Of a DNA stretch of 64,000 nucleotides, positions 8,988 through 61,020 are shown piece by piece. The translations under genes were made by a program, and so were the position numbers. The notes under the pieces were generated by a model. The model saw only the letters and a program-made list of their open reading frames with translations, was not told the origin of the DNA and searched no databases. The stretch comes from Plotosus lineatus (lineage: Eukaryota; Chordata; Actinopteri; Siluriformes; Plotosidae): positions 39,158,564 through 39,222,563 of the forward strand of contig CM045734.1 of the NCBI GenBank assembly GCA_024760905.1, read 5' to 3'. How positions within the stretch are numbered: the stretch's first letter is position 1; every line of letters starts with the position of its first letter.

Positions 8988-11597
8988 CTTCTTTTCCTTT
9001 CGGCTTTTCCCTTCAGGGGTCGCCACAGCAAACCATCCGCCTCCATCTCACCCCATCCTCTGTATCTTCTACTCTTACTTCATCTACCTTCATGTCCTCC
9101 TTCACCACATAGATAAATCTTCTCTTTGGTCTTCCTCTAGACCTTCTGCCTGGTAGTTCCAACCTCAACATCCTACTACCAATATACTCACTATCCCTCC
9201 TCTGTACATGTCCAAACCACCTCAATCTAGACTTTGTCTCCAAAACGGCTTACACCTCAATACAGATCACAATGTCATCTGCAAACATCATAGTCCATGG
9301 AGATTCTTGTCTAATCTCGTGTGTCAGCCTGTCCATCACCATAGCAAACAAGAAGGGGCTCAGAGCTGACCCTTGATGCAGTCCCACCTCCACGTTGAAC
9401 TCTTGACACCACCACGTTGAACTCTCACCGACAGCACACCTCACCACTGTCTTACATCTCTCGTACATGTCCTGCACCACTCAAACATATTTCTCTGCCA
9501 CTCCAGACTTCCTCATGCAATACCACAGTTCATCTCTCGGAACCCTGTCACATGCTTTCTCCAGATCCACAAAGGCACAATGCAGCTCCTATTGACCTTC
9601 TCTGTATTTCTCTATTATCATCCTCAAAGCAAACACTGCATCTGTGGTGCTCTTTCTTGGCATGAAACCAAACTGTTGTTCACAAATGCTGACCTCTGCC
9701 CTTAGACTAGCTTCCACTATTCTTTCCCATAACTTCATCGTATGGCTCATCAACTTTATCCCTCTGTAGTTGCCACAACTCTGCACATCTCCCTTGTTCT
9801 TAAAAATGGGCATAAGCACACTTCTCCTCCATTCTGGCATCCTCTCACTCTCTCAGACCATGATGAATGTTCTTGTCAGAAAATCTACTGCTACCTCTCC
9901 TAGACACTTCCATAACTCCACCGGTATATCATCAGGACCAACTGCCTTTCCACTCTTTATCCTCTTCTATGCCCTCCTCACTTGACCCTTACTAATCTTT
10001 GCTACTTCCTGGTCCTCATTCGTCACCTCTTCGACTCTTTTTTTCTCTCTCTCATTTTCCTCATTCATCAGCTCTTCAAAGAACTCTTTCCATCTTCCCA
10101 GCACACTTCTGTCATCAGTCAACACGTTTCCCACTCTATCCTTAATCACTCTAACTTGCTGCACGTCCTTCCCATCTCTATTTCTCTGCTGTGCCAACCT
10201 GTATAAATCATTGTATCCCTCCTTACTGTCAGACCCAGCATACAAGTCATCATACACCCTCTGTTTGGCCTTTGACACCACTACCTTTGCCTTACACTGT
10301 GTCTCCCTGTACTCCTGTTTACTCTCTTCGGTCCTCTCTATGTCCCATTTCTTCTTAGCTAACCTCTTCTTTTGTATACACTCCTGCACTTCCTCATTCC
10401 ACCACCAAGTCTCCTTATCTACTGTCCTTCCAGAGGACACACCAAGTACTCTCCTACCTGTCTCCCTGATCACATTTGCTGTAGTTGTCCAGTCATCTGG
10501 AAGCACTTCCTGACCACCAAAAACCTGTTTCAACTCCTCCTTGAAGACAACACAACACTCTTCCTTTTTCAGCTTCCACCACTGTGTCTTCTACTCTGCC
10601 TTCTTCACCTTTCCTACCATCAGCATCATCCTGCACACCACCATCCTATGCTGTTTGGTAACACTCTCACCCTCTACTACTTTGCAGTCACTGACTTCCT
10701 TCAAATTACATCGCCAACACAAGATGTAGTCTACCTGTGTGCTCCTACCTCCACTTTTATAAGTCACCCTTTGCTCCTCTCTCTTCTGGAAGAAAGTATT
10801 CACCACAGCCATTTCCATCATTTTTGCAAAATCTATCAACATCTGTCCTTCTGTGTTCCTGTCCTGGATACCAAATCTGCCCATCACTTCCTCGTCCCCT
10901 CTGTTTCCTGCACCAACATGTCCATTGAAGTCTGCACCAATGACTACTCTTTCACCTCTGGGGTATTCTGCATCACTTCATCTAACTCACTCCAGAATCT
11001 CTCCTTCTCTTCTCGCTCACATCCTGCCTGTGATAAGCACTAACAACAATTGAACATCACACCTTCAATTTCTAACTTGAGACTCATCACTCTGTCTGAC
11101 ACTCTTTTCACTTCTAGAACATTCCTGAACAACCCCTCCTTTAAGATGACTCCGACTCCATTTCTCTTCCCATCCACACCATGAAAAAACAGCTTAAACC
11201 CTGCTCTTAAGCTTCTAGCCTTGCTACCTTTCCACCTGGTCTCCTGAACACGCAGTATGTCCACCTTCCTCATCTGCATCATGTCAGCCAGCTCTCTACC
11301 TTTTCCTGTCATAGTTCCAACATTCAAAGTCCCTACTCTCAGTCCTAAACTCACGATTTTCCTCTTCTCTCTCTGCCTACGGACACGCCTCTCCTTCTTC
11401 GACCAACAGTAGTCCAATTTCCACCAGCACCCGGTTGTTGTTAACCTGGGCCTCAACCGATCCAGTATGAAATTTTTCTTTATGGTTTGCATTTTGTGTC
11501 CTGGCAAAAGTTTTACGCTGAATGCCCTTCCTGTCGCAACCCTCTGTATTTATCCGAGCTTGGGACTGGCGTGAAGGCGGGCACTTGTTTGTGCCCC
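8988..11597 (-). mobile_element. RTE-clade LINE, near full span but internally deleted and decayed
   Basis: On the minus strand it reads from 11597 to 8988. The start includes VPSLSSGRVGTLNVGT-like sequence and the endonuclease block VDILRVQETRWKGSKAR (about 11280-11210). Next comes a WWNEEVQECIQKKRLAKKKW linker (10400-10350). The reverse transcriptase follows, with FGFMPRKSTTDAVFALRMII (9680-9620), GLHQGSALSPFLFAMVMD (9385-9325) and the FADD box at 9280-9268 (normally YADD). The C-terminal LRWFGHVQRRDSEYIG block follows immediately at 9225. About 400 bp between the FADD box and this block are missing compared with the copy at 48724. Frameshifts and stops split every domain, so it is dead. 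It sits between two (TA)n tracts. Confidence 0.88.
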
Positions 11598-11609
11598 CCC
11601 TCACGGCTG

Positions 11610-11614
<5 letters not shown>

Positions 11615-11678
<64 letters not shown>
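11615..11678. repeat. (TA)n microsatellite at the 5' end of the RTE LINE
   Basis: About 64 bases of pure TA repeat, mirroring the tract on the other side of the LINE. Confidence 0.95.
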
Positions 11679-25754: not shown

Positions 25755-25925
25755 TGTTTTTCAGTGGACAAGTTGTTTACATTTATAGTGCCGTGGCAGA
25801 TGCTAATATCCAAAGCAACTTACATTTTTATCTTATTCGTACAACTGAGCGGTTGAAAGTTAAGGGCCTTAGTCAAGGGCCCAGGAGTGGCAGCTCGATG
25901 ACACTGGGGCATTAAACCCAATTAT
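25755..25925 (+). mobile_element. SINE/LINE-derived conserved fish repeat
   Basis: The words GGCAGATGCTAATATCCAAA, GCAACTTACATTTTTATC and GGCCTTAGTCAAGGGCCCAG match a very common fish interspersed repeat. It is 5'-incomplete and diverged. Confidence 0.5.
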
Positions 25926-27728: not shown

Positions 27729-27769
<41 letters not shown>

Positions 27770-27831
27770 CATACACATACATATATACATACATGCATAC
27801 ATATATACATACATGCATACATATACATACA

Positions 27832-27909
<78 letters not shown>

Positions 27910-27914
27910 TATTT

Positions 27915-27969
<55 letters not shown>
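27729..27969. repeat. compound TA/CA/CATA microsatellite
   Basis: Alternating blocks of (TA)n, CATACATA and (CA)n over 240 bp, ending just before the palindrome at 27986. Long apparent reading frames here (Ile-Tyr, Thr-His repeats) are not genes. Confidence 0.95.
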
Positions 27970-27975
<6 letters not shown>

Positions 27976-28034
27976 CATATATACAAAACAAAAATAAAAG
28001 GACAGGACAAACACTTTCTATTGAAACTCCATTT

Positions 28035-28089
28035 ATCACTACAGATCTGTTTCGAGGGGTGGTGAAACCATCCTCTCTCTTCAGGTGAT
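28035..28089 (-). ncRNA. hammerhead ribozyme motif on the opposite arm
   Basis: The mirror copy in the left arm, read on the minus strand. Core CTGAAGA is at 28084-28078, GAAA at 28053-28050, and stem I halves are at 28089-28085 and 28039-28035. The sequence is identical to the plus-strand copy across the whole motif, so both strands of this locus would transcribe a complete ribozyme. Each transcript would also contain the complement of the other copy. Confidence 0.8.
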
Positions 28090-28128
28090 TATAGAAGAAT
28101 TCTTCTATAATTCTTCTATTCTTCTATA

Positions 28129-28183
28129 ATCACCTGAAGAGAGAGGATGGTTTCACCACCCCTCGAAACAGATCTGTAGTGAT
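28129..28183 (+). ncRNA. hammerhead ribozyme motif, type I, minimal stem III
   Basis: All conserved hammerhead positions are present. Stem I is ATCAC (28129-28133) with GTGAT (28179-28183). The core is CTGAAGA (28134-28140). Stem II is GAGAGGATGG / CCACCCCTC (28141-28164), with G10.1-C11.1 kept. GAAA is at 28165-28168. Stem III is ACAG, loop AT, CTGT (28168-28177). The cleavage-site base is A at 28178, following U16.1. Short stem III and this context are typical of hammerheads in Penelope-like elements and related retroelements. The mobile-element host is inferred. Confidence 0.8.
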
Positions 28184-28234
28184 AAATGGAGTTTCAATAG
28201 AAAGTCTTTGTCCTGTCCTTTTATTTTTGTTTAT

Positions 28235-28293
28235 TTGCTCTACCAAAAAGTATTGAGCACTCTCCTACGGAAGGATCTACTCAGAAAATCCTC

Positions 28294-28335
<42 letters not shown>

Positions 28336-29245
28336 CATTCACCTCCTTAGTTCTAACGGTCTTTTGATGTTGCTACACTTACCAGGGCGTTCCTTCATTT
28401 GCAAAATATACCAAATTATTGTTTTAACTATGCAACCATTTCAGATAGTGCTCAGATAGGTTTGTTTTGATTTTCAGCCTAACGATGAACTCCATAACTT
28501 GCATCAATAGTTCCATGGTTGCATCAATAGTATCCACATTCAGAGTTCTCAAGAACAGCAAGAAAATACAAGTTCGATACTTGACATCAGTTACAGAAAT
28601 TTAATCTAAGGAAACAGGATATATAATAGCCATGAAACTGCTTCAATCGGTCATTTATTGTAAACCTGTGAAAATACTGGAAATCTGTTGGAAAAATGGC
28701 TCTAACAACATGCTTTTGTAAAAAAACAAACAAACAAATAAACCCCACTGAATTAAATATATGTAACATTACACTTTGATAACATTGAGAATGCTTAATT
28801 TCAAATCCACTGGAGTCGTATACAGAGGCGAATTGCAAAACATTCGGCGACTGTATCTATACTTGTGCACCTGGCTGTACATCTTAGATGGCATACTTGT
28901 ACCACCGCAAAGTGGTGTTAATTTATTCAACATTAAATAGATGCAACAACACATGGTTATATTAGTAATGAGTATAATAAAAATATGCAGGCTTATACTA
29001 GTTGTGAAAGATGGCACAGAGGAATATTGGTAAGCACATCCTAATTAAAAGCAGTTAGGTTCTGGGCTCAAGTTCCATTCCGAGCTAGATTGCATGTTCT
29101 CCCTGTGCTTGTGTGGGTTGCTTCCAGGTACTTGTGTTTCATGCATATTAGGCTAACATTTGGCTGTTCCTTTTTGCCCGAAGATGTGTTAATTTTTGTA
29201 ACTGAATAAGTTAAATTATTACTGCATGGCTGGCATGCGTAACAG
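28235..29245. other. msh3 intron 8, no gene seen
   Basis: Contains a short (TA)n at 28306-28331. The remainder is unique-looking AT-rich sequence. Confidence 0.5.
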
Positions 29246-29258
29246 AAACGCGAGTGTC

Positions 29259-31394
29259 ATCATCATCATCATCATCATCATCTTCCGGTTGATCCAGAAT
29301 CGGGTCACAGAGCAGCAACCTAAGCAAAGAGATCCAGACATCCCTCTCCCCCACCACTTCCTCCAGCACTTCCGGGGGACACCGAGGGGTTCCCAGACAA
29401 GCCAAGAGACATAGTCCCTCCAGCATTTTCTAGGTCGACCCCGGGGTCTCTTCCCGGTTGGACATGCTTGAAACACCACACTGGGGAGGCGTTCGGGAGG
29501 CATTCTGACTAGATGCCCGAGCCACCTCAACTGGTCCCTCTCAATGCAGAGAAGCAGCGGATCTACTCCGAGCTCTCCTCGAATGGTAGAGCTTCTCACC
29601 TTATCTCTAAGTGAGAGCCCCATCACCTGACAAAGGAAGCTCATTTCAGCCGCTTGTTCTTTCGGTCTCTACCCAAAGCTCGTGACCATAGGTGTAGGTT
29701 GGAACATAGATCGACTGGTAAATTGAGAGCTTCGCCTTACGGCTCAGCTCCTTCTTCACCACAACGGACTGGTACAGGCTCTGTTTAACAGCAGAGGCTG
29801 CAGCGATCCGTCTGTCAATCTCTCGCTCCATCCTTTCCTCACTCGTGAACAAGAGCCCAAGGTACTTAAACTCCTCCACTTGGGGCAGGACCTCATTCCC
29901 GACCTGTAGGGTGCATTCCACCCTTGTCCGACTGAGAACCATGGCTTCAGATTTGGAGGTGCTGATTTTCATCCCGGCCGCTTCGCACTCAACTGCGAAT
30001 TGCTCCAATGAGAGCTGGAGATCCCGGCTTGATGAAGCCAAAAGGACAAACTTCATCTGCAAAAAGCAGAGACGAGATCCGATGGCCACCAAACCAGAAC
30101 CCCTCAACGCCTCAGCTGCGCCTAGAAATTCTATCCATAAAAATTATGAACAGAATCAGTGACAAAAGGACATTCTTGACGGACTCCAACCTTCAGTGGG
30201 AAAGAATTCGACCTGTTGTTACCAAAACAGAGCAAACTCTGGCTCCGGTGATTCAGTGATCGAATGGCCCATAGCAATGGGTCCGGAACGCCATATTCTC
30301 AGAGCACGCCCCACAAGATAGTCCGGGGGACAAGGTCGAAAGCCTTCTCCAAATCCACAAAACACATGTGGACAGATTGGGCAAACTCCCATACCCCCTC
30401 CAAAATTCTGTGGAGCATATAGAGTTGGTCAAGAGTGCTACAGCCAGGATGAAAACCACATTGTTCCTCCTGGATCCGAGGTTCGACTATCGGTCGGATC
30501 CTCCTCTCCAGTACCCCTGCACAGACTTTCCCAGGTATGCTGAGGAGTGTGATTCCCCGATAATTGGAACATACCCTCCGGTCCCCCCTTTTTAAAAAGG
30601 GGGACTACCGCCCTGGTTTGCCAATCCAGAGGTACTGCCCCCGATAACCACGCGATGTTGCAGAGACGTGTCAACCAAGACAGTCCTACATCATCCAGGG
30701 CCTTGAGATATTCAGAGCAGATCTCATCCAACCCCGGAGCCCGACCACCGAGGAGCTTTTTGACAACCTCAGTGACTTCCACTCCAGTGATGGGCAGACC
30801 CCCGCAGAAACCCCCAGGGTCTTCCTCCTCCACGGAGGGCTTGTTGGTGGGATTGAGGAGGTCCTCAAAGTATTCCCTCCACCTCTCGATGACATCCCCA
30901 GTCGAGGTGAGCAGCTCCCCACCTCCACTATAAACGGTTTGTGGAGAGCTGCTTCCCCCTCCTGAGGCATCGGATGGTGGTACAGAACCTTTTTGAGGCC
31001 AACTAATAATCACTCTCCAGGCCCTCACCAAACTCCTCCCATGCCCGAGATTTTGCATCTGCGACAGCCTCAGCTGCAGCATGTTTGGCCTGCTGATATC
31101 TGCCTCAGGAGTCCCACAGGCTAATAAGGCCTGATAGGCTTCCTTTTTCAGCTGGACGGCTCCTTTCACCACAGGTGTCCACCACCAGGTTTGGGGGTTA
31201 CCGCTACGATAAGCACCGACGACCTTCTGACCACAGCTATGGGCTGCCGCCTCAGCAATGGAGGCACGAAACATGGCCCATTTGGATTCCATGTCACCCG
31301 CCTCCTCCGGGCCGTTGTTGTAGCTCTGCCGGAGGTGGGAGTTAAAGGCCTCTCGGACAGAAGACTCCGCCAAACGTTCCCAGCAGATCCTAAT
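29259..31394 (-). mobile_element. Rex3 (RTE-clade) LINE, reverse transcriptase segment
   Basis: Minus-strand reading from about 31394 to 29259. It covers the linker (ICWERLAESSVREAFNSHLR, WWWTPVVKGAVQLKKEAYQA), the RT core (VTEVVKKLLGGRAPGLDEIC, WLSGAVPLDWQTRAVVPLFK), and the C-terminus (EVLPQVEEFKYLGLLFTSEE, QLRWLGHLVRMPPERLP). It ends in an ATG/ATGATG tail at the 3' side. Frameshifts and stops make it inactive. The upstream endonuclease segment lies on the opposite strand next to it. Confidence 0.93.
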
Positions 31395-32352
31395 AGTCAC
31401 CGGTGTCCCCCCCTGGAGCCAGGCCTGGGGGAGGGGCTCGAAGGCGAGCGCCTCGTGGTCGGGCTTCTGCCATGGAGCCCAGCCCGAAAAGAAAACATGG
31501 GTTCGCCCTCCCATGTACCCACCACCCGTGGGAGGAGCCATAGGGGTCAGGTGCGATGTGAGTCGGGTGGCAGCCGAAGGTATGGGTTCTGTTGGACCGA
31601 TACTCGGTTATTGACTCTGACTCTTGGGATATGGAATGTCACCTCTCTGGCGGGGAAGGAACCTGAGCTGGCACGTGAGTTGGAGAGATACTGACTAGAT
31701 GTAGTCGGGCTCACCTCAACACATAGCTTGGGCTCTGGAACCACCCATCTCGGGAGAGGCAGGACATTATTCCATTCTGGAGTTGCTCATGAGGAGAGGC
31801 GGCAAGCCGGTGTGGGCATCCTTGTTGCCCCCCGTCTCGGTGCCCAAACGCTGGGGTTCTCCCTGGTCGACAAAAGGGTAGCTTCCCTCCGCCTTCGGGT
31901 GGGGGGTACGGGTCCTGACTGTTATTTGTGCTTATGCACCAAATGACAGTTCAGAGTACTCGCCCATCTTGGAGTCTTTAGGGGGTGTGTTGGAGAACGC
32001 TCCCTCTGGAGACTCACTCATTGTCTTGGGAGACTTCAATGCCCATGTGAGCAACGATAGTGTGACCTGGAAGGGTGTGATCGGTAGGTACGGCCTCTCC
32101 AGTCTGAACCCGAATGGTGTTTTGTTGTTGGACTTCTGTGCTCGTCACAGTTTGTCTGTCACGAACACCATGTTCGAACATAAGGGTGCCCATAAGTGCA
32201 CTTGGCACCAGGACACCCTAGACCGCAGTTCGATGATCGATTTTGTAGTCATGTCACCGGACTTGCGGCCGCATGTTTTGGACAGTTGGGTGAAGAGGGT
32301 GGTGAGCTGGCTTCGATGGCGGGAGAGGCTGCCTTCCAGACCTGGTAGGCCA
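31395..32352 (+). mobile_element. inverted 5' UTR and endonuclease segment of the same Rex3 copy
   Basis: Read on the plus strand, opposite to the RT segment. It holds the Rex3 5' UTR (CTGGAGCCAGGCCTGGGGGA, GGAGGAGCCATAGGGGTCAG) and then the AP-endonuclease-like domain (LGIWNVTSLAGKEPELAREL, GDSLIVLGDFNAHVSNDSVT, WHQDTLDRSSMIDFVVMSPD). It ends at AGACCTGGTAGGCC, where the RT segment would normally continue. The 13-bp duplication AAACGCGA/GTGTC at 29246-29258 and 32353-32365 encloses both segments. Confidence 0.93.
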
Positions 32353-32510
32353 AAACGCGAATGTCTACGTTGAAAATATTTTGAAATAATAAAACAATTC
32401 ATGAATTTAATAGACCAAATAATTATCCACACCATACTTCTCCTTAGTGAACAATTGCTTATTCTTATCATTTGGCAAAAAAAAATATATAGGGGATGAA
32501 AGGAAAGAAA

Positions 32511-33771: not shown

Positions 33772-34542
33772 CACGCACTATCCGAGTTACAACGAACACA
33801 AGTTACGAACACCCATATTTACAGCAACGTCTAGCAGATGCCTATTATGATTTTATTGTATATGTTCGGCAGCGTAGCGCATAAGATAGTTGCGGCAGCA
33901 CAGCATCCCAGCATCTCACACGCACAGCATTCTACCACTACACTCAGTGACTAGATACCGTCACAGTATCATCTCTTTTACAGTACAATTTTACATTAAT
34001 TTACTGTACACCGTTACCATGGCCCCCAAGATGAAGTCCGATTCATCAGATGGCAATTCTACCAAGAAAGCAAGGAAGGCACTGTCGTTGGAGACGAAGA
34101 TGAAAGTGATAAATCAGTATGAAGGAGGAAAAAAAGTAAATTCCATTGCTCCAGATCTCCATCTCTCCCAATCCACGGTGTGTACAATTTTGAAGGACAA
34201 GAACCACATTAAGGAAGCAGTGAAAGCTGCAGCCCCAATTAAGTCAACTATAATCACAAAACAGCGTGAAGGACCGATTGCAGAGATGGAAACGTTGTTA
34301 TACACGTGGTTGGAAGATAATAGGCAACGAAATGTGAAAGTGATGTTGCAAGTAGCACAAAGTAAGGCTGCAAGTTTATTTCGCATGTTGAAAGAACGTG
34401 CAGGTGAAGAACACGCTTCACCGAGTTCATAGCGAGTGCTGGGTGGTTTCGGTTTCGTTTCGTTAAATGTCCGACTTATGACCAATCTGACTTACAACTG
34501 GTTGGTTGGAACCGATTGAGGTCATAACTTGGATAGTGACTG
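33772..34542 (+). mobile_element. pogo/Tigger-like mini-transposon with both ends and TA duplication
   Basis: A 771-bp element flanked by TA (33770-33771 and 34543-34544). Ends are CACGCACTATCCGAGTTA and, from the right, CAGTCACTATCCAAGTTA. TA duplication, CA termini and the encoded CENP-B-like HTH place it in the pogo/Tigger group. It contains one intact ORF and no catalytic domain. A decayed second copy lies at 7205-7890. Confidence 0.9.
34019..34432 (+). CDS. intact CENP-B-type helix-turn-helix protein of a pogo/Tigger-like element
   Basis: 137 codons from MAPKMKSDSSDGNSTKKARK to a stop. The N-terminal half matches the pogo/CENP-B HTH: LSLETKMKVINQYEGGKKVN, then LHLSQSTVCTILKDKNHIKE. The second part (EGPIAEMETLLYTWLEDNRQ) is the start of the second HTH that Tigger and CENP-B proteins share. 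The full-length transposase would continue for several hundred residues with a DDE domain. Here the frame instead ends after SLFRMLKERAGEEHASPSS. Possible products are a DNA-binding-only peptide or a relic kept by chance. An ATG further upstream (33890) would add 43 residues in the 5' part of the element, which look non-coding. Confidence 0.75.
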   Translation: MAPKMKSDSSDGNSTKKARKALSLETKMKVINQYEGGKKVNSIAPDLHLSQSTVCTILKDKNHIKEAVKAAAPIKSTIITKQREGPIAEMETLLYTWLEDNRQRNVKVMLQVAQSKAASLFRMLKERAGEEHASPSS

Positions 34543-42454: not shown

Positions 42455-42798
42455 GCAGTGGTGGTCTAGTGGTATAGGGCGCTGGATCGCTGATCCAAAC
42501 GTTGGGGGTTCGAGTCCCACTCTCCACAAGGTTGTCACTGTCCCTCCCAGTGCGGCTAAGTGGGTTATCAAAGGGGGGCCATGTCTCTCACTGTCTATGG
42601 TGAGAGGGATGTAAAAGAACCATTGCTGACTTTCGTAAAGAGTAGCTGCAAAGTCGTCAGCGTGTTTCTGTCCCTTGCTAAAAGGGTTGTGACAGGAAGG
42701 GCATCCGACGTAAAAACCTCTGCCAAATCAAACGTGCGAATCAGATGATTCGCTGTGGCGACTCCTGAGTAAAAGGGAAAAAGCCGAAAGGAAGACAG
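42454..42798 (+). mobile_element. full-length SINE, RTE-like tail, inserted in a (TA)n tract
   Basis: The best-preserved copy. The head GGCAGTGGTGGTCTAGTGGT contains box A, and GGTTCGAGTCCC is box B. The body is GTCGTCAGCGTGTTTCTGTC, and the tail is GATTCGCTGTGGCGACTCCT then AAAGCCGAAAGGAAGACAG. Flanks are ATATATATAAG at 42443-42453 and 42799-42809. Confidence 0.95.
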
Positions 42799-50060: not shown

Positions 50061-50316
50061 CCGCCAATGCAGCTAACTGGGTTATCAAAGGCTGGCCATG
50101 TCTCTCACTGTCTATGGTGAGAAGTTCATGTAAAAGAACCATTGCTGACTTTCATAAAGAGTAGCCGAATAGTCGTCAGCGTGTTTCTGCCCCTTGCTAA
50201 AAGGGTTGTGTCAGGAGTGCATCCGACGTAAAAACCTATGCCAAATCAAACGTGTGAATCAGATGATTCGCTGTGGCGACCCTCGAAAAAGGGAAAAAGC
50301 TGACAAGAAATGTACT
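50061..50316 (+). mobile_element. 5'-truncated SINE, RTE-like tail, 13-bp target duplication
   Basis: It starts within the body (AATGCAGCTAACTGGGTTAT) and ends in the tail GATTCGCTGTGGCGACCCTC then AAAGGGAAAAAGC. It is flanked by TGTTTTATAATGG at 50048-50060 and 50317-50329. Confidence 0.92.
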
Positions 50317-56854: not shown

Positions 56855-57111
56855 CCCCAGTGCAGCTAACTGGGTTAACAAAGGCGGGCCATGTCTCTCA
56901 CTGTCTATGGTGAGAGGCATGTAAAAGAACCATTGCTGACTTTCGTAAAGAGTAGCTGCAAAGTCGTCAGTGTGTTTCTGTCCCTTGCTAAAAGGGTTGT
57001 GACAGGAAGGGCATCCGACGTAAAAACCTCTGCCAAATCAACCGTGCGAATCAGATGGTTCGCTGTGGCGACTCCCGTGTAAAAGGAGAAAAGCCGAAAG
57101 GAAGACAGACG
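56855..57111 (+). mobile_element. 5'-truncated SINE nested in the hAT element, 19-bp target duplication
   Basis: It begins at CCCCAGTGCAGCTAACTGGG and ends in GTGTAAAAGGAGAAAAGCCG then AAAGGAAGACAGACG. It is flanked by acatagtatggattaaaac at 56836-56854 and 57112-57130. The uninterrupted site is present in the sister element near 61395-61415 (reverse strand). Confidence 0.95.
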
Positions 57112-59034: not shown

Positions 59035-59352
59035 GGGGCAGTGGTGGTCTAGTGGTATAGGGCGCTGGATCGCTGATCCAAAGGTTGGGGATTCGAGTCC
59101 CACTCTGCACAAGGTTGTCACTGTCCCCCCCAGTGGCGCTAACTGGGTTATCAAAGGCCGGCCATGTCTCTCACTGTCTATGGTGTGAGGCATGTAAAAG
59201 AACCATTGCTGACTTTCGACAAGAGTAGGCTGCAAAGCCGTCAGCCTGGCGAGCTATCCAGGGTGTACTCTGCCCTCACCCGAAGTTGGCTGGAATGGGC
59301 ACCAGCCTCCCCGTGACCCAAATTAGGATTAAGCGGGTACAGAAAATGAACT
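59035..59352 (+). mobile_element. SINE with L2-like tail, full length
   Basis: The head GGGCAGTGGTGGTCTAGTGG and body are identical in most positions to 42454-42798 up to GCAAAGCCGTCAG. It then switches to CCTGGCGAGCTATCCAGGGT and the tail AGGATTAAGCGGGTACAGAA. A short TGAACAC direct repeat flanks it. Confidence 0.9.
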
Positions 59353-59971: not shown

Positions 59972-60152
59972 GTACATGCAGTGGTAGCTCAGTGATGAAG
60001 ACAGTGGATTACTGACTCAAAGGTTCGTGGTTCAAGCCGCAATACCACCAAGCTGCAACTGTTGGTCCCTTGAATCAGGCCTTAAGCCCCAGTTGCATAT
60101 AAAAAATGATAACGTAAGTTGCTCTGGATAAGGGCATCTGCCAAATGCCATA
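59972..60152 (+). mobile_element. second tRNA-derived SINE family
   Basis: The tRNA-like head (GCAGTGGTAGCTCAGTGATG, with GGTTCGTGGTTCAAGCC as box B) is followed by a body ending GTAAGTTGCTCTGGATAAGG then GCATCTGCCAAATGCC. That tail is very common in ostariophysan fishes. Confidence 0.8.
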
Positions 60153-61020
60153 GATGTAGCACAGACCTTTGGATGCAACTCTCTTATAGAACACAATCTT
60201 TTTTCATGTGGCTGTTAGTCCTGCCATCCAGCCAAAACAATGTCTGAACTTATTTGTGATGTCTTCCAGGTGGTCTTCATTTTCTGGCCCAAAGAAAGAA
60301 AAAGAGGCTAAACAGTTTCATCTACGTTGCCTGAGGCACATCATGAATATCCTTTGGCAGGTTAAGGTACCCAGACTTAAAAATACTGGAGCACACGATC
60401 CTCTTCTGACTGGTTAAAGGCTCTACAGGAACCCCTACTTCATTAATCTAAGGCACAGATGAGCTGTTTCTCTAAATGACTATCTTTGGTGACCTTTAAT
60501 GGGGAAGAAACGTTTAAGATGTTTAACAATCATTGTGGTGTTATATCACTGACTCGACATCTCACAAACTACTTTTCAAATATCCACCAAGCCGGAGTTA
60601 AATAATTATTTTAGTATATAGTACAAGGGAACATAAGAAAAAACTTGAATATACAAATGCTCCCTGACTTACGTTTTTAATTGGTTCCGGACGACTGAAT
60701 GTAAGTTGAAAGTGAACGTAAGTTGTTACAGTGACGTGTGACGCTCATACTGTACTATACATCCATAAATATCATTACCGTATCCCATAAAACACCCCTA
60801 AATTAATTATTATAAACATAACATTGTAAAATAATATCAACATTAACTTCAAATAAGTCATTTATTTATACCGAGGCACTTTAGATGAAGCTTAAAACAG
60901 CCAATCAACGCTTACAATATGTGAAGCGCTCAATAACCGAAAGTAGTGTACTTGCTGCGGGTTATACAGACTTCCGGTCTTTCAAGTGCACAAGGGTGCC
61001 GTTGAACTCGTTTAGAACAC
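60153..61020. other. ubac1 intron with pogo-like terminus
   Basis: 60655-60960 starts ATGCTCCCTGACTTACGTTT with GGTTCCGGACGACTGAATGT, a pogo/Tigger-type end. The rest shows no gene. Confidence 0.4.

Follow-up and report, generated by a model that had tools for sequence, protein, structure and literature searches.

A head-to-head palindrome in the window

The window, i.e. the whole 64,000-nucleotide stretch analyzed here, contains a palindrome made of two inverted arms of 115 nt each, which are 99% complementary and lie on either side of a 17-nt spacer (Table 1). A single mismatch, at arm position 89, separates the arms, in agreement with the initial annotation, which had described a head-to-head palindrome with 115-bp arms and one mismatch. 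Each arm carries a hammerhead ribozyme motif, and one of them—the long arm—continues into a tail. Both outer ends border on microsatellites, and target-site duplications of this copy are unreadable within these flanks.

Table 1. Features of the palindromic locus (window coordinates; ref, reference coordinates as defined in the text)
Feature	Position	Strand	Remarks
AT/CA microsatellite, short-arm side	27731..27985	.	Sequence
Short arm (pseudo-LTR copy without tail)	27986..28100	- (sense)	Outer end 27986, inner (5′) end 28100
Hammerhead motif of short arm, including both stem I strands	28035..28089	-	Descriptor; expected cut 28040/28039
Junction filler between arms	28101..28117	.	Built of TTCTTCTATAA-like pieces; similar pieces also adjoin the filler
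Pseudo-LTR part of long arm	28118..28232	+	28118 matches the recurrent 5′ terminus, ref 138
Hammerhead motif of long arm	28129..28183	+	Sequence, fold and descriptor; expected cut 28178/28179
Long-arm hammerhead: stem I	28129-28133/28179-28183	+
Long-arm hammerhead: CTGAAGA	28134-28140	+
Long-arm hammerhead: GAAA	28165-28168	+
Long-arm hammerhead: A17	28178	+
Self-complementary stem III segment, ACAGATCTGT	28168..28177	+	Small hairpin by itself; 10 bp if two RNAs pair
ATG within stem II opening a putative 10-codon frame	28147..28179	+	Read from the sequence; stop at the cut site
Tail (61-62 nt), on one arm only	28233..28293	+	Ends at an AT-rich microsatellite
TACATA/TA microsatellite, tail side	28294..28331	.	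Sequence; (TA)5+ at the tail side in 68/80 copies

Architecture of the hammerhead motif

Each arm comprises, in this order, CTGAAGA, stem II, GAAA, stem III, U16.1, A17 and GTGAT. Sequence, fold prediction and a motif descriptor together identified all elements of a minimal hammerhead, namely C3–A9, G12–A14, A15.1–U16.1, H17 and three helices; the claim that each arm possesses the complete set of invariant positions was thus upheld by sequence and descriptor alike. Stem I consists of 5 bp and stem II, as annotated, of 9 bp, to which we add a bulged A and an A·C mismatch. Stem III is very small. The form initially proposed for it, 4 bp closed by a 2-nt loop, is sterically tight, and the folding program, with stem I and an open core imposed, instead predicted 3 bp with a 4-nt loop. 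As ACAGATCTGT is fully self-complementary, stem III could alternatively be formed jointly by two RNAs.

The descriptor, which required a stem I of at least 3 bp, the three closing pairs of stem II, GAAA, a stem III of at least 2 bp, U16.1 and H17, matched the two arms and nothing else on both strands of the 64 kb. Over 300 dinucleotide shuffles, chance matches per 64 kb amounted to 0.047 at this loosest setting and to 0.007 when stem I had at least 4 and stem III at least 3 bp, and not one match arose in 300 shuffles with at least 5 and 3 bp, respectively, which is the quality of the arms themselves. The bare CTGANGA..GAAA pattern is, on its own, nothing special, with 16 matches in the window vs. 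4.4 expected. In prokaryotic and viral contig collections, where little was expected, a degenerate form of the motif had 0 matches.

The Rfam hammerhead families were absent from the window results, both at the gathering threshold and at E ≤ 5, and no hammerhead model was listed at E ≤ 10 for the palindrome stretch or for four other genomic copies. The covariance-model check suggested at the outset hence came out against a hammerhead. Two tRNA matches were the only ones above the gathering threshold in these scans, and lax E-values brought up mostly miRNA-hairpin and other sub-threshold models. The motif has the architecture of a hammerhead but, since no Rfam hammerhead model lists it, is not assigned to any Rfam family. 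We do not treat this outcome as decisive, because published minimal hammerheads of Penelope-like elements (PLEs) are described as lacking helix III or loop–loop contacts (PMC7761336).

That the match is a mere chance likeness, or a decayed and inactive motif, appears unlikely to us. Such a reading would accommodate the missing Rfam match, the A·C mismatch within stem II of the abundant form, and the predicted energies, the hammerhead fold of one core (−10.6 kcal/mol) being slightly less stable than an alternative fold (−13.4 kcal/mol). It is contradicted by a descriptor expectation far under one match per window, by the reported occurrence of hammerheads in all available PLE sequences (PMC6155905), and by a related subfamily (L039, L048, L055) in which stem II contains GAGGGG instead of GAGAGG and the A·C mismatch is consequently missing. 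In this subfamily stem II is continuous except for one bulge, and the predicted energy drops to −17.3 kcal/mol, although the alternative fold is again lower (−20.1 kcal/mol). The abundant form may have lost one stem II pair, and the hammerhead of the family is probably able to cleave.

The family belongs to the Penelope-like elements

One copy on contig 1 (L026, 6842500–6844900) connects the palindromes to a protein-coding element. Its head-to-head arms enclose an interior of ~1.7 kb with an ORF piece that carries YRDDG and, downstream, a TYIGLTENTFKTRYRNH segment. A search with the RT part of this piece returned 1,378 homologues, including Nematostella and Entelurus (pipefish) proteins. As direct Pfam scans of the L026 ORF pieces and seven homologues gave no RT or GIY-YIG match, we turned to a profile comparison, for which 21 of 120 listed homologues were aligned and compared with 16 of 120 listed canonical PLE RT-EN proteins, the latter collected with a consensus query. 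hhalign linked the two profiles with a probability of 97.7 (E = 1.5e-12, 427 aligned columns), the RT catalytic motif and the GIY-YIG motif, including its YIG..R..H part, being in register. PF26215 is precomputed for many L026 homologues and for canonical PLE proteins. PDB sequence searches produced one meaningless match (E = 0.99) and otherwise none, and an AlphaFold model (mean pLDDT 45) was unusable.

The homologues matched two further ORF pieces, one of 57 aa in L024 (E = 5e-17) and one of 41 aa in L085 (E = 4e-20), so that three of the 87 loci L024–L110 contain such pieces. In the window and in 228 kb of genome (L001–L023), no PLE ORF was detected by tblastn, for which five PLE proteins and the L026 piece served as queries; a canonical PLE consensus, too distant from this lineage as a query, gave one stray tblastn match (E = 0.41) over the window plus 198 kb.

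Judged by its sequences, the profile link and the ORF pieces in the copies mark the family as a Penelope-like element. RT together with a C-terminal GIY-YIG endonuclease, the combination expected of PLEs, is found in the family, and the hammerhead is present, as a sequence motif, within the pseudo-LTR. The copy in the window is accordingly an inverted pseudo-LTR pair with a tail and without an ORF. The notion of a minimal hammerhead of the PLE kind, put forward from the palindrome alone, is corroborated by the PLE ORF pieces in other genomic copies.

Copy number and anatomy of genomic copies

The host genome comprises 1.33 Gb in 30 contigs. Within it, a 50-nt core occurs 11,736 times (5,828 + 5,908) with at most 3 mismatches and the tail core 8,704 times with at most 2; the controls, a reversed pattern in the case of the 50-nt core, had 0 occurrences each. 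The 100 core places listed are all exact and spread over 13.8 Mb of contig 1. Extrapolated from this start of one contig, most counted copies should be exact over 50 nt, which would make the family young. For 99 of these 100 places, neighbors within 300 nt formed 17 head-to-head pairs and 0 tail-to-tail or direct ones, and arrays with a direct spacing of 527–762 bp were seen twice (L024, L025). The 198 kb around the window held three further copies, all head-to-head, with outer ends alike and centers different; the 30 kb fetched elsewhere in the genome held none. Given ~twelve thousand such motifs in the genome, the window locus is ordinary.

To describe the copies, we used a sample of 80 tail-anchored loci, fetched from the first 86 of 100 listed tail places; the remaining six tails lie inside L024 (two), L025, L026, L029 and L098. 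All 80 lie within the initial 13.8 Mb of a single contig and were picked by an exact tail match, a selection that favors young copies and, by its very design, provides every long arm with a tail. Positions refer to reference coordinates (ref; L024 1331–1646), in which the ribozyme cut falls after ref 198.

A second, inverted arm was present in 49/80 copies, counted only within 60 nt, so that junction lengths, which ranged from −10 to 48 nt, are bounded at 60. Such head-to-head pairs, deemed unusual in the initial annotation, are hence common among tail-bearing copies, and the literature likewise describes head-to-head inverted pseudo-LTRs as abundant in bdelloid PLEs (PMC3846280). The second arm ended at ref 242–257 in 41 of the 49 pairs, with which the outer end of the short arm in the window agrees, and earlier in 6; in only 2 (L036, L098) did it bear a tail. 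Pseudo-LTRs of the PLE type, often inverted head-to-head and optionally tailed on one side, are thus represented by the 49 pairs, 2 of them with a tail on both arms.

At the 5′ side, 79 of 129 arm ends clustered at ref 127–146—58 of these at ref 138–140—and the rest were scattered. Exactly one arm reached this terminus in 16/49 pairs, both arms did so in 23 and neither in 10. A T/C subfamily marker was common to both arms in 37 of the 38 scorable pairs, and both arms therefore usually derive from one source. At the tail side, 78/80 copies displayed a dinucleotide run of some kind (for (TA)5+ runs, see Table 1).

In the other 31 copies, no second arm was detected. Seventeen of them begin at the recurrent 5′ terminus, upstream of which those one-armed copies that were read had unrelated host sequence or a microsatellite. 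One-sided insertion is therefore also common, unless very short second arms escaped detection; one of the 31 (L056) has an uncounted inverted, tail-bearing neighbor 132 nt away.

Two loci showed more complex arrangements. At L024 (contig 1, 1003300–1005150), a nested array places a two-armed copy between two outer arms, with 3′-UTR-like sequence between. In L026, a second, more diverged palindromic relative (2305–2401) adjoins the first in the same microsatellite, where the fetched stretch ends.

A probable two-sided insertion and its alternatives

Very probably, the window copy represents a 5′-terminal, two-sided insertion—a pseudo-LTR pair plus tail—of a young PLE with a very high copy number. 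According to the mechanism we propose, an element RNA beginning ~16 nt upstream of the hammerhead core would be bound by the RT-endonuclease, and an AT-rich target site would be cut on both strands. Each 3′ DNA end would then prime reverse transcription at an internal RNA site, ~50 nt past the ribozyme cut for the short arm and ~62 nt further on for the tail arm, and each cDNA would extend to the RNA 5′ end or stop early. Finally, the facing cDNA ends would be joined centrally with short filler or microhomology, as the variety of junctions suggests, and leave behind a head-to-head palindrome with a minimal hammerhead motif per arm. Of this scheme, the sequences themselves show how the copies are built, where their outer and inner ends recur, how numerous they are, that some are linked to PLE ORF pieces and that the cut site was read through; priming from either target end, the joining of the cDNA ends, the equation of the inner terminus (ref 138) with the RNA 5′ end and a hammerhead able to cleave are what we infer.

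Several of these steps have counterparts in an Anolis PLE protein, for which it is described that both target strands are cut and extended, that AT-rich DNA is preferred, and that reverse transcription starts internally at two sites whose spacing equals the tail, neither start showing a strand preference (PMC11167929). Pseudo-LTRs in inverted, predominantly head-to-head order, palindromic at their junction and tailed on a single arm, have also been described for PLEs (PMC3846280); the arrangement as such is already known and not new here.

A palindrome would likewise result from self-priming, i.e. if one cDNA, or else a strand copied from an antisense template, folded back and copied its own arm, as was put forward for bdelloid rotifer PLEs on the basis of frequent inverted-junction palindromes (PMC3846280). 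The subfamily marker shared by both arms is compatible with this route, as are the short junctions, measured under the 60-nt counting rule. Fold-back synthesis should, however, run into the tail of the first arm, which is seen in only the two pairs with both-arm tails. Moreover, the stop of most second arms at one other recurrent site and the often unequal inner ends (in 16/49 pairs, the 5′ terminus is reached by one arm but not by the other) argue against simple fold-back copying, an origin we regard as rather improbable.

Small size, high copy number, a hammerhead motif and the lack of an ORF in most sampled copies would also be expected of a non-autonomous retrozyme or SINE-like element amplified from hammerhead-processed circular RNA. 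Yet retrozymes are arranged in tandem, and no units repeated directly in tandem, with the cut site as their boundary, were found here (0 direct neighbors within 300 nt among the 99 listed places). Both the starts and the ends of copies occur to either side of the cut, which is mostly run through (see below); a processed monomer was therefore not the template. Moreover, three copies carry PLE ORF pieces. In view of this, amplification from circular RNA seems quite improbable.

The near-identity of the arms (1/115 positions differ) had been taken to indicate that one ribozyme copy had recently undergone inverted duplication or gene conversion, but the two-armed plan recurs at many loci with fixed outer ends, varying centers and, as a rule, a tail on one arm only, which leaves such a local event hardly credible and puts one two-sided insertion in its place. 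Palindromes are a known class of assembly and library artefact, but a fold-back artefact would mirror the flanks regardless of element ends, whereas independent loci, some on contig 1 and others in the surroundings of the window (contig 7), share plan and ends and differ in arms, tails, flanks and junctions, making this source extremely unlikely.

Read-through of the ribozyme cut site

Under the two-sided insertion model, arm ends record how far each cDNA was copied relative to the ribozyme cut. Of the 129 arm ends, 24 lay before the cut-site region, 12 at ref 194–204 and 93 past the cut. In other words, the cut site was reached by 105 cDNAs and passed by 93 of them, and it was mostly uncleaved RNA that served as template. 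This genomic read-through agrees with the in vitro behavior of the Anolis element PAc, whose main substrate was unprocessed RNA (PMC11167929).

The 12 stops near the cut site may stem from cleaved RNA. They exceed the 3.3 ends expected from flanking rates (Poisson 1.6e-4), for an interval that was set after the data had been seen and with BLAST ends uncertain by a few nt; RT pausing at a structure would also give such an excess. Genome-wide counts of exact 18-mers, comprising two bins only, were 12,218 from the cut site vs. 11,541 from 6 nt upstream. The difference of 677, or 5.5%, is in line with the 5/129 sampled ends at ref 194–199.

A transcript across both arms was predicted to fold into one long hairpin, as anticipated in the initial annotation, with a minimum free energy of −200.8 kcal/mol, compared to the −10.6 kcal/mol of a single-core hammerhead. 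Given this hairpin, cleavage of a two-armed copy would be improbable, even supposing that one arm on its own is active.

More tentatively, and with some reservation on our part, the thousands of short two-armed copies could be read as a frozen in vivo record of Penelope-type integration, with starts from both target ends at two internal sites of one RNA, a discrete RNA 5′ end and stitched cDNAs, in which the hammerhead mostly did not cut and the 12 stops, no more than 5 nt away from the cut site, reflect a minority of cut RNA. If true, the ribozyme would not be a processing step required for transposition but would act as a brake or as a side branch; the role of minimal PLE hammerheads has been described as unknown (PMC7761336). 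With ~twelve thousand closely similar copies, the genome can itself be queried for the sites at which copied RNAs begin, be it the ribozyme cut or elsewhere. The two-sided insertion model would also explain such palindromes in raw sequence and cautions against reading them as unusual inverted duplications.

Comparison with known systems

The Penelope element of Drosophila virilis is likewise a Penelope-type PLE with head-to-head inverted pseudo-LTRs and a tail. In contrast to these known PLEs, the copies sampled here mostly consist of arms that lack an ORF, and over eleven thousand ribozyme motifs are present in the genome. The minimal PLE hammerheads of Luense et al. 2017 reportedly cleave as dimers. 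They resemble the present motif in being small and PLE-linked, and the self-complementary stem III would allow a dimer here as well, whereas the CTGAAGA core and the bulged stem II, known from sequence, are peculiar to this family.

Bdelloid Pen2a, as described in PMC3846280, has the same inverted pseudo-LTRs, junction palindrome, one-arm tail and ORF with RT and GIY-YIG, but its tail measures 31 bp, vs. ~61 nt in the present family. Poseidon PAc of Anolis carolinensis shares the location of the hammerhead at the pseudo-LTR/ORF junction and, in vitro, unprocessed RNA as the main template; under our model, it would also share the internal RT initiation that gives rise to the tail, AT-rich targets and cleavage of both strands (PMC11167929). 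The PAc ORF is reported to start at stem II, with the cut 26 bp downstream (PMC11167929), and the ATG in our motif has a similar geometry, but opens a frame of only 10 codons. The RT sequences differ, too, with YRDDG here vs. YVDD in the canonical alignment. While PAc was characterized in vitro and uses the same RT starts on both strands (PMC11167929), the evidence here is genomic. Retrozymes similarly combine genomic hammerheads with non-coding mobile units (PMC7229834); the present family differs in having no direct tandems within 300 nt and templates mostly uncut at the ribozyme site.

Other features of the window

A dispersed repeat (42631–42660, 50150–50179 and 56941–56970, all on the minus strand) contains CTGACGA..GAAA, a partial hammerhead-like string. 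As hammerhead candidates, its three copies were rejected: none satisfies the complete descriptor, and all resemble a common interspersed repeat. Another ribozyme-like match, a type-P1 twister at 11536–11618 (minus strand), remained sub-threshold (35.7 bits; threshold 67.2).

Pfam searches of ten window ORFs returned LINE endonuclease/RT pieces and a CENP-B_N domain, none of them PLE. Two nearly identical tRNA-like sequences just over the Rfam threshold (42455–42528 and 59038–59109) are probably SINE heads. The UnaL2 LINE 3′ element was matched below threshold at 60101–60154 and 25785–25836 (45.4 and 28.8 bits, respectively; threshold 55). Decayed LINE pieces adjoin the palindrome at 29219–32373, with an endonuclease fragment on the plus and an RT fragment on the minus strand. 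They are followed, at 33890–34432, by a CENP-B-type DNA-binding domain from a Tigger-like transposase fragment, whose named relatives come from Macrobrachium.
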